Shown here piece after piece: positions 122-61,368 of a stretch of 64,000 nucleotides of DNA. The DNA is from Gracilibacillus suaedae. Its GTDB lineage: Bacteria; Bacillota; Bacilli; Bacillales; Amphibacillaceae. Each line of letters starts with the position of its first letter. Position 1 is the stretch's first letter. The position numbers were made by a program, and so were the translations under genes. Below the pieces are notes generated by a model, which saw only the letters and a program-made list of their open reading frames with translations, did no database searches and was not told the DNA's origin. The stretch lies in the NCBI RefSeq assembly GCF_017599345.1, contig NZ_JAGFVL010000060.1:62001-126000 (forward strand), read 5' to 3'.

Positions 122-230
122 CCTCTTATCTTTCAAAGCAAAACGCTTTGATGGAATTAGCACCTATCAGCTTTAACTGACGGTTGCCGGGTTTCATAGG
201 GCCATTCCCTCCACCACTCTTGATAAGAGC
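122..230 (-). promoter_or_regulatory. SAM-I (S-box) riboswitch upstream of metN
   Basis: Read on the minus strand, this has the S-box hallmarks: a P1 helix closing bases 222-229 with 123-130, the GGAGGGA..GGCCC..TGAAACCCGGCAACC core, and the GGTGCTAATTCC segment. In this class, SAM binding stabilises P1 and lets the downstream terminator at 73-108 form, switching off methionine uptake genes. The transcript continues into metN at position 33. All conserved blocks are present, so it looks functional. Confidence 0.95.
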
Positions 231-59519: not shown

Positions 59520-60065
59520 TTACATGGCTTCTTCCCCTTCTGTAACAGTTTCTAAATGGGAAAAGTAATTTTCTTTCGTAATTACATATAAATCATAAAC
59601 AAGTTCTTCCTGTGGGTTAATTTTTTCAAAAACTTCAGGATAACTTTCATTACCATACATGACGAAAGGGATTTTTAAAATTGCTCTTAAAGAGCGTACA
59701 TTCGTACGTCTGATTTTAATAAAAATTGCGTCGATGTCATGATGATAAAACAGTTCTTCGAAAAAAGCGTCTTTTGCTAATTTATTATAGCCTTTGCCAA
59801 AGTATGGCTTACCGATCCACGTCGCCAAAAACCCAGCCTTATTTTCTATATCAAATAAATTGATCGTCCCGATTGGATTAAAATATTCATCGACAATGGT
59901 GCGGGAGATCAATTCCCCGTTTTCTTCGGCTTCCATTGTCTGTTTTGTTAAAAAGTAAAATTCGTCACTGGAATAAGCTTTATGTCTTACGTATGGAAAT
60001 ACTTCTGGATCAGACATGAGATCGAATAACACTGGCGCATCCTGGACGTCTCTTTTTTTAAGCAT
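59520..60065 (-). CDS. GNAT family N-acetyltransferase (RimJ/RimL-like)
   Basis: A 181-residue GNAT enzyme. ISRTIVDEYFNPIGTINLFDI, then GFLATWIGKPYFGKGYNKLAKDAFF give the central strands and the acetyl-CoA loop (GKPYFGKGYN). The position of family arginines (IRRTNVRSLRAI) fits the RimJ/RimL branch that acetylates amino termini or small amines; the substrate is unknown. The ATG at 60065 has AAGGAGGG seven bases upstream, and that site can be paired by the leader. The C-terminus (EGEEAM) overlaps no other gene. Confidence 0.82.
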   Translation of the reverse strand: MLKKRDVQDAPVLFDLMSDPEVFPYVRHKAYSSDEFYFLTKQTMEAEENGELISRTIVDEYFNPIGTINLFDIENKAGFLATWIGKPYFGKGYNKLAKDAFFEELFYHHDIDAIFIKIRRTNVRSLRAILKIPFVMYGNESYPEVFEKINPQEELVYDLYVITKENYFSHLETVTEGEEAM

Positions 60066-60252
60066 AAAAAATCCCTCCTTAGTCATTGGAGGGTGAAAAG
60101 AAGACAGAAACCTGGTGTAGCTGTGTCCTTACCACCCTCGAATTTTTATCAAAGTTTAAACAAAAATTCGGGGTGGGAATCGAACCCACTAGAACCAGTC
60201 TACTTCCACTGGTGGCGCACCATTTGCCTTCCCTTATATCAACTGCTCGATA
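60066..60252 (-). promoter_or_regulatory. Structured leader of the GNAT gene with tRNA-like domain and SD-sequestering hairpin
   Basis: A promoter (TTTACA at 60287-60282, TAAGAT at 60263-60258, 18-base spacer) predicts transcription from about 60251. The RNA then shows a tRNA-like layout: acceptor-like ATAAGGG (60237-60231) with CCCGAAT (60172-60166), D-like arm 60228-60214, five-bp anticodon-like stem CCAGT/ACTGG (60212-60208, 60199-60195), five-base variable segment, and a T arm GTGGG-TTCGATT-CCCAC (60189-60173). Then come alternative strands: 60176-60161 can pair with 60147-60132; 60139-60133 with 60095-60089; and 60093-60088 with the Shine-Dalgarno 60078-60073. Confidence 0.6.
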
Positions 60253-60401
60253 CCCTTATCTTACACAATAAACAAGATAGTTGTAAATAGAAAATCACAA
60301 AAAAACATGAAAAAAATTAAGTAAAAGGAAGGAATATTAAGAAAATTTACTTTAAATTAATATAAACGTTGAAAATGGTCGTAAATGACATGATAAGACG
60401 A

Positions 60402-61301
60402 TTAATTGTAAATTTCGGTTAATGCTTGGTCAATGGTAGCGTGGTGAAAATGATAGCCTGACTCCATCGCTTTTTCGGGTAAAACTTTCTGTCCATCCAC
60501 GACTAGTATACTCATTTCACCTAGAAGTGTTCTTAACAGAAAGCTTGGTGTAGGAAACCAATTTGGTCTGTTTAACGTTTGTGCAAGAGCTTGTGCTAAT
60601 TCTTTATTTTGAACAGGGCTTGGGGCAGTGATATGTAAGGTGCGTTCAACATGTTTATGATCGATTGCATATAATAAGAGACCAACGACATCCTTAATAT
60701 GGATCCACGATACCCACTGTTTACCGGAACCAATTTTTCCTCCGGCGAATAGTCGAAACGGGATGGCCATTAGTGGTAAGGCACCTTCCTCTCCTAAGAT
60801 AACACCAAATCTCGCCACAACCGTCCGAACACCAAAGGATCTTGCTTGTAGTGCCGTTTCTTCCCATGCTTCTGTCACTTCAGCAAGAAAGTCATTGCCT
60901 TGTTCTTCTGATTGTTCCGTAAAAGTTTTCGTGTCCGATGTGCCAAAGTAGCCGATAGCTGAAGCATTAATAAGCACTTTAGGTTTTTCTGACAGTTTTC
61001 GAATTAAATCGATAACCGCGTATGTCGCATTAATTCTGCTTTGATAGATTTTATCCTTTTTTGCTTTGGTCCAATAGCCGAATAAGGAATCTCCAGCCAA
61101 GTTAATGATGCCATCAAGCTTTGGTAAATGTTGTTCAGGATGAAAGTCGTCATGTAGCCATCCAATATAAGATACTTGTTGATTACTTTTATATTTGTTA
61201 GGAGATCGAGTTAAAATGTAAACTGAATCGCCGCGTTCGGTTAATGCTTTTGTTACATGTTTTCCGACAAACCCAGTTCCACCAGCTATTGCGATGTTCA
61301 T
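60402..61301 (-). CDS. yfhF: TIGR01777 family NAD-dependent oxidoreductase (YfhF-like)
   Basis: A 299-residue atypical short-chain dehydrogenase. AGGTGFVGKHVTKAL (residues 6-20) binds the nucleotide, LINASAIGYFG lies at the active-site region, and the C-terminal 50 residues (LLRTLLGEMSILVVDGQKVLP) form the DUF1731 domain. The family includes cell-division inhibitor SulA homologues of E. coli YfcH type, but the function is unknown. The ATG at 61301 follows GGAGGGG. Its position next to recX matches B. subtilis. Confidence 0.88.
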   Translation of the reverse strand: MNIAIAGGTGFVGKHVTKALTERGDSVYILTRSPNKYKSNQQVSYIGWLHDDFHPEQHLPKLDGIINLAGDSLFGYWTKAKKDKIYQSRINATYAVIDLIRKLSEKPKVLINASAIGYFGTSDTKTFTEQSEEQGNDFLAEVTEAWEETALQARSFGVRTVVARFGVILGEEGALPLMAIPFRLFAGGKIGSGKQWVSWIHIKDVVGLLLYAIDHKHVERTLHITAPSPVQNKELAQALAQTLNRPNWFPTPSFLLRTLLGEMSILVVDGQKVLPEKAMESGYHFHHATIDQALTEIYN

Positions 61302-61368
61302 TATAAGCCCCTCCATTTCGTTTGTAGAACAAATGTTTGTGTGTTAAAATAATAGTGAGGTGATAAAC

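Follow-up and report, generated by a model that had tools for sequence, protein, structure and literature searches.

A conserved tRNA-like leader RNA, probably a translational ON-switch, upstream of a GNAT acetyltransferase gene in Gracilibacillus suaedae and its relatives

Leader RNAs that resemble tRNA have been described before. For the yjdF riboswitch, a tRNA-like fold was reported in 2022, together with a translational ON switch in which a strand of the T arm hides the ribosome-binding site (RBS); in the sections of that report considered here, BLAST searches, with a tRNA database among their targets, gave no kinship with tRNA, and the discussion mentions acetyltransferases under yjdF control (PMC9142559). 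A crystal structure followed in 2024 and is described, in the part of the paper considered here, as showing tRNA-like placement of the helices with no direct contact between L2b and L4 (PMC10987639), and the riboswitch is reported to lie almost exclusively before one gene (PMC4793209, in part). In Bacillus cereus, tRNAOther is described as a pseudo-tRNA flanking a genomic island, and its deletion is said to alter the expression of numerous other genes (PMC3399842, in part). An initial annotation of the locus described here held that no RNA family of this design was known, a statement that overlooks the yjdF riboswitch with its reported tRNA-like fold and T-arm translational control (PMC9142559). 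Among the literature matches listed, from a search with most subscription papers and bioRxiv outside it, no title or abstract start named a tRNA-like GNAT leader. We regard the tRNA-like leader as a kind already known and, as far as these searches reach, the present class as new.

The window, a 64,000-nucleotide stretch of the Gracilibacillus suaedae genome, carries the leader on its minus strand at about 60252-60066, flanked on one side by a yfhF-like epimerase gene (60402-61316) and on the other by the gene for a GNAT N-acetyltransferase of 181 aa (59520-60065, minus strand, ATG at 60065). All parts given below lie on the minus strand, and their order is a cloverleaf, a hairpin, an anti-Shine-Dalgarno strand and then the Shine-Dalgarno (SD). 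Direct reading of this strand bears out the succession of tRNA segment lengths seen initially: an acceptor-like 5' strand, ATAAGGG (60231-60237), of which only GGG (60233-60231) is kept and paired; a 2-nt joint, AA (60230-60229); a D-like arm, GGC-AAATGGTGC-GCC (60214-60228), whose GG corresponds to tRNA G18 G19; a single A (60213) joining it to a 5-bp anticodon-like arm, CCAGT-8 nt-ACTGG (60195-60212); a variable segment, TTCTA (60190-60194); a T arm, GTGGG-TTCGATT-CCCAC (60173-60189); and an acceptor-like 3' strand, CCCGAAT (60166-60172), without CCA after it. The anticodon-like loop has 8 nt in the window, as had been noted, and varies in length and sequence among homologues. The 5' strand of helix H1 (60161-60176) comprises the 3' strands of the T and acceptor stems and a T run, and its 3' strand (60132-60147) contains a switch strand, GAGGGTGG (60139-60132). 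Farther on lie the anti-SD strand, CACCCTCC (60088-60095), which has either the switch (H2) or the SD (H3) as its partner, and the SD itself, GGAGGG (60073-60078), followed by ATTTTTT. The three alternative pairings proposed at the outset are all present in the sequence, namely 60176-60161 with 60147-60132, GAGGGTG (60139-60133) with CACCCTC (60095-60089), and CCCTCC (60093-60088) with the SD GGAGGG (60078-60073).

The window leader folds more stably than its shuffles (minimum free energy z -3.7; equal stability in 1 of 200 shuffles), and at minimum energy it adopts the refolded state, with H1 formed and the SD paired. ARAGORN made no tRNA call on this leader, and no Rfam family matched it at the gathering threshold; in a permissive Rfam scan a 17-nt match to the tmRNA T arm scored 15.5 bits and the other matches were at chance level. 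That short match being its sole support, a tmRNA identity was dropped. The Rfam comparison recommended initially thus places the element in no described family among those searched. Elsewhere in the window there is a SAM riboswitch (123-229, minus strand, 100 bits). Coding on the plus strand, where open reading frames run at 60086-60271 and 60093-60290, was also dropped, since single-nucleotide differences in the length of the anticodon arm (11-20 nt in the 66 distinct leaders described below) leave no reading frame intact. On sequence evidence, the conserved tRNA-like leader is real and more than a chance fold.

Conservation is unevenly distributed over the tRNA-like domain. The initial count of five pairs out of seven in the acceptor-like stem holds in the window, but among 132 loci only pairs 5-7, three G-C pairs, are kept throughout (132/132), and positions 1-4 are paired in 78, 29, 84 and 14 loci, respectively. 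These counts rule out a full 7-bp stem, and, judged by pairing, the acceptor stem of the element is 3 bp. Sequence variation in the remaining parts was tallied in 66 distinct leaders (84 loci minus 18 duplicates, not chosen by T-arm sequence). All 66 have TTCGATT as their T loop, with all 84 loci fitting the pattern, and the T stem, fully paired in every case, is GTGGG/CCCAC in 57, GTAGG/CCTAC in 7 and ATGGG/CCCAT in 2. The D loop is AAATGGTGC in 64 of the 66, position 26 is A in every one, J8-9 is AA in 65 and AAA in the other, and the variable segment is TTCTA in 55, TCCTA in 10 and TTTTA in 1. This near-invariance is somewhat flattered, because the set consists of the best-scoring loci from BLAST and model searches, with 13 of the 43 relatives that carry the element and 10 of 40 genomes from another family, f35, excluded. 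The conserved loops and junction, the free anticodon arm and the three acceptor pairs imply that the elbow and junction of the tRNA fold have been held, and that the decoding loop and amino-acid end have not. In an alignment of 51 leaders, hand-picked from 112 distinct ones, both-sided changes occur at 5/5 pairs of the anticodon-like stem and 2/5 pairs of the T stem, and the whole structure has a covariation score of 0.151, as compared to 0.061 for shuffles and 0.013-0.056 for slid controls.

Kinship with tRNA was assessed with a covariance model of the tRNA-like domain (R1). Copies of the element scored 79-94 bits in a sample of the class, among the matches listed. The next-best matches, at 46 bits or less, were in 28 of 28 listed loci ARAGORN tRNA genes matched in register, and included genes for tRNA-Asn, -His, -Gln, -Gly and -Lys; because these next-best loci are tRNA genes aligned in register, the derivation from tRNA put forward initially is supported. 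One of 49 element loci scanned, L134, has a leader that ARAGORN calls as tRNA-Lys and that reaches 32.0 bits against RF00005 with permissive filters (gathering threshold 29). With fast filters, none of 20 element loci was among the RF00005 matches, and the window leader had no match. Descent from tRNA would be the simplest reading; close mimicry of tRNA may be an alternative to descent.

The element was found in 43 of 61 relatives, and 19 of the 25 families sampled from the order have it (DNA search, E 1.2e-8 or better). Conservation upstream of GNAT orthologues, which the initial annotation had singled out as decisive, is complete in this sample, with the element adjoining GNAT in all 42 GNAT-bearing genomes among the 61. 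Among the 19 relatives that gave no GNAT match, a single one carries the element: in this Virgibacillus genome (G033; loci L104 and the end of L210), an apparent insertion behind the SD separates the leader from the start codon, and the contig stops shortly past the apparent insertion. An exact 28-mer over the T arm retrieved 103 stretches from the genome_contigs collection, among them stretches from Gracilibacillus, Oceanobacillus, Halobacillus, Virgibacillus and the Bacillus licheniformis group; because these loci (L031-L133) were picked by an exact T-arm match, T-arm invariance among them is by selection. Several genomes are present in both locus collections. Over loci L001-L161 the downstream gene is GNAT at 159 of 161 (153 by script and 6 by eye); L067 ends with the fetched stretch and L104 is interrupted by the apparent insertion, and no gene other than GNAT was seen downstream of the element at these loci. 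The class sample, 348 genomes searched with R1 under stricter filters by which weak matches are lost (as were f35 and the genomes carrying both this element and yjdF), yielded 28 genomes with the element at a score of at least 79 bits among the matches listed, and GNAT was present in 28/28. However, strong GNAT matches (at least 237 bits) occur in 89 genomes of the sample, and 61 of these are without the element, all but one of them outside the order of the window; the GNAT gene therefore does not need it. The element is specific to the GNAT gene, yet not universal for it. Upstream regions of GNAT orthologues in 18 element-less genomes gave a single 4.9-bit fragment with R1 and nothing with Rfam. 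Among 96 representatives, with less than 85% GNAT identity to one another, a yfhF-like gene lies upstream in 59; no conserved operon partner was evident downstream of GNAT. Six plasmid records have a GNAT relative, all at less than 60% identity.

The cloverleaf and H1 are mutually exclusive, since H1 takes the 3' strands of the T and acceptor stems. Across the 96 representatives, H1 positions 65-72 are paired in 95-100%, 63 and 64 in 92%, 62 in 79% and 61 in 51%, where the 3' strand was located by an A-run/TTC/GG pattern that favors the inner pairs; position 72 shows a two-sided change (TA in 75 and AT in 16 of 96). The covariation test suggested for homologues was likewise positive: besides the anticodon-like and T stems, which covary, H2 and H3 strands pair better with their own partners than with those of foreign species, and none of 2000 permutations equaled the observed result for either helix among the 96 representatives. 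For H2 this remained 0/2000 in 47 clusters below 75% protein identity and in 18 clusters below 65%, and for H3 the corresponding numbers were 8 and 7. When single sequences were shuffled (5 or fewer of 100 shuffles), H2 stood out in 51 of the 96 and H3 in 23, and both stood out, with overlapping strands, in 14. When 94 leaders were folded under constraints, the SD-buried H1 state was more stable than the cloverleaf state in 92, the mean difference being 9.2 kcal/mol, with 0.5 of the 6 SD bases unpaired in the OFF state and 2.8 in the ON state (n = 94). The ON state is thus modeled as unfavorable, with the SD about half free; because the energy model is without tertiary contacts, the true gap between OFF and ON should be smaller. 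The picture that emerges from the models is of a default-off leader that would need a stabilized tRNA-like fold. The design proposed initially, a tRNA-like GNAT leader with exclusive helices in which a folded T arm would leave the SD free and a broken one would bury it, is supported by conservation, synteny and covariation. Such an arrangement, a conserved sensor-like domain exclusive with an expression platform, is that of a riboswitch as far as it can be recognized from sequence.

Some leaders depart from this layout. Among the matches listed, 40 of 121 genomes of family f35 have an R1 match, 37 of them at 78 bits or more and three at 54-66 bits. In part of this family (20 of 29 distinct leaders) the strand after H1 pairs over at least 8 bp with the variable segment and the anticodon 3' strand, as in GCTAGAGCCAG with CTGGTTCTAGT; the excess for own partners is modest, the observed score being reached by 193 of 5000 permutations. 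The minimum-energy structure of L160 brings its T loop and stem into direct pairing with the SD. In L014 (1360-1591, minus strand), the loop of H1 contains extra sequence, and the two strands of the helix are retained. The leader of a GNAT orthologue from another family (L240, 88-237, minus strand) has a long H1-like hairpin (z -4.0) and no recognizable tRNA-like domain. In family f36, which has large genomes, three GNAT leaders (L249, L250 and L253) share another hairpin before an AGGTGG SD (z -2.4 against shuffles in L250). Those of family f48 (L242-L244 and L254) have a GGTTCAAAC, GGTTCGAAC or GGTTCGATT motif, T-loop-like by eye, and the one examined by folding (L243) folds little better than its shuffles (z -1.6).

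The GNAT protein matches Pfam PF13302 (E 1.5e-13, on a 188-aa open reading frame), as do 54 of 54 orthologues, and its AlphaFold model has a mean pLDDT of 94.7. The nearest solved folds among the best 50 listed by Foldseek are SpeG, FdhC, RimL and MccE (query TM 0.64-0.76, 12-20% identity), and none of these structures is described as RNA-binding. A phmmer search of the PDB gave no relative at E≤0.01, and a profile search for structural relatives gave 12 weak matches, with MccE and SpeG first. PADLOC gave no match. A polyamine or an aminoacyl-nucleotide would be our guess for the substrate.

We consider it probable that the element is a cis-acting, tRNA-derived regulatory leader that would serve as a translational ON-switch for GNAT. 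By default, H1 would form and use up the switch strand; CCCTCC would then pair with the SD (H3) and GNAT translation would be off, and in many species the T run after H3 could also terminate transcription. Stabilization of the tRNA-like fold would break H1, whereupon the switch would pair with the anti-SD strand (H2), leaving the SD free and translation on. The chances are perhaps even that the stabilizer is a small molecule or an ion that binds to the near-invariant junction or elbow, and a protein would be the second candidate. Somewhat more tentatively, a former tRNA gene may have become a ligand-gated translational switch for one acetyltransferase, with the elbow and junction as the sensor, the T-stem strand as the lever, and the anticodon and CCA end abandoned. 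A promoter-like TTTACA-18-TAAGAT (60258-60287, minus strand) would place the RNA start near 60251; promoter-like sites are no commoner than in shuffles (5 found, 3.4 expected), and no conserved promoter was detected upstream of homologues (mean best score 15.35, as compared to 15.25 for shuffles, in 95 of the 96 representatives).

One could also envision the leader acting mainly as a transcription attenuator, with H3 and the T run forming an intrinsic terminator and burial of the SD secondary. At least 5 T within the 8 nt after the SD core, found in 71 of 96 representatives, would suit such a role, which is compatible with the ON-switch; however, the element is kept in 21 of 96 with 3 or fewer T, and the terminator scan lists none at the leader on the minus strand (perhaps because it admits loops of up to 8 nt), so that attenuation as the main mode seems unlikely. 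We give similarly little weight to the domain being a protein sensor, bound by GNAT itself (autoregulation), by another tRNA-binding protein or by a tRNA-modifying enzyme that would set GNAT synthesis. ThrRS acts on its own mRNA, and the association of the element with one gene, the retention of tRNA elbow nucleotides and a faint match of GNAT (17.9 bits, E 4.7e-4, far below the cut-off) to a model of isoleucyl-tRNA synthetase that includes a GNAT domain would fit such a scheme; but the nearest folds listed are not described as RNA-binding, GNAT orthologues elsewhere do without the element, and the 90 GNAT proteins compared are for the most part acidic (median pI 5.4; net charge from -12 to +2, median -7), which does not favor RNA binding by GNAT itself.

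That the element is a divergent yjdF (azaaromatic) riboswitch we hold to be very unlikely. The reported tRNA-like fold of yjdF, its RBS-hiding T-arm strand and its translational ON switch would invite this assignment, as would the pairing of the T loop with the SD in L160, but covariance models speak against it from both sides: the yjdF model RF01764 has no match in any of 60 genomes from the window's family (a B. subtilis positive control matches) and is absent at E≤5 from the window leader and the L134 stretch, and at 12 yjdF loci R1 detects none of the yjdF copies, the single match that it gives (7.9 bits, L203) lying elsewhere. In addition, two genomes (G133 and G235) carry both RNAs at separate places, and the joining segment of the element has 2 nt instead of being an extended purine-rich J1/2. 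Scarcely credible, finally, is a decayed tRNA or functionless integration scar that came by chance to lie before GNAT; kinship with tRNA, the short acceptor stem and the missing CCA could be so explained, but not so readily the near-invariance over 19 of 25 sampled families, the compensating changes in stems and the position as leader of one gene, with a yfhF-like gene upstream in 59 of 96.

The element, present in 19 of the 25 families sampled from the order, is a second leader RNA on a tRNA-like fold, one whose kinship with tRNA is visible in a covariance-model search. Were it a ligand-gated former tRNA, no other riboswitch would show descent from tRNA as clearly. Two questions become testable with it: in what way a tRNA may turn into a switch for a gene and, because whatever triggers the switch may hint at the substrate, what an uncharacterized GNAT enzyme acts on.

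With tRNA (RF00005) the element shares segment order and lengths, the GG of the D loop and the TTCGATT T loop. It differs in being part of an mRNA leader, in an acceptor helix of 3 bp without CCA (a T run follows in the window), in an anticodon loop free in length rather than of 7 nt, and in having A at positions 8 and 48, where the rules of the tRNA core call for U8 and Y48. T-box leaders are likewise Gram-positive leaders with exclusive helices, and contain a GGGTGG strand; T-boxes bind tRNA in trans, whereas the tRNA-like part of the element is built in. A T-box identity was rejected, no Rfam T-box matching the window at gathering, the leader at E≤5, or the L134 stretch. Like tRNAOther as described, the element is tRNA-like within a larger regulatory RNA; unlike it, it is the leader of a single gene, which tRNAOther is not described to be in the account considered here. 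The likeness to yjdF lies in the reported tRNA-like fold, the T-arm strand as RBS-hiding partner and the position before one gene, and the yjdF off state, as described, resembles the T-arm:SD pairing of L160. The two differ in the gene downstream (yjdF versus GNAT), in the joining segment (extended purine-rich J1/2 versus the 2-nt AA) and, L160 apart, in the platform, which in yjdF is direct pairing of the T arm with the RBS and in the element comprises the three-strand helices H1, H2 and H3.
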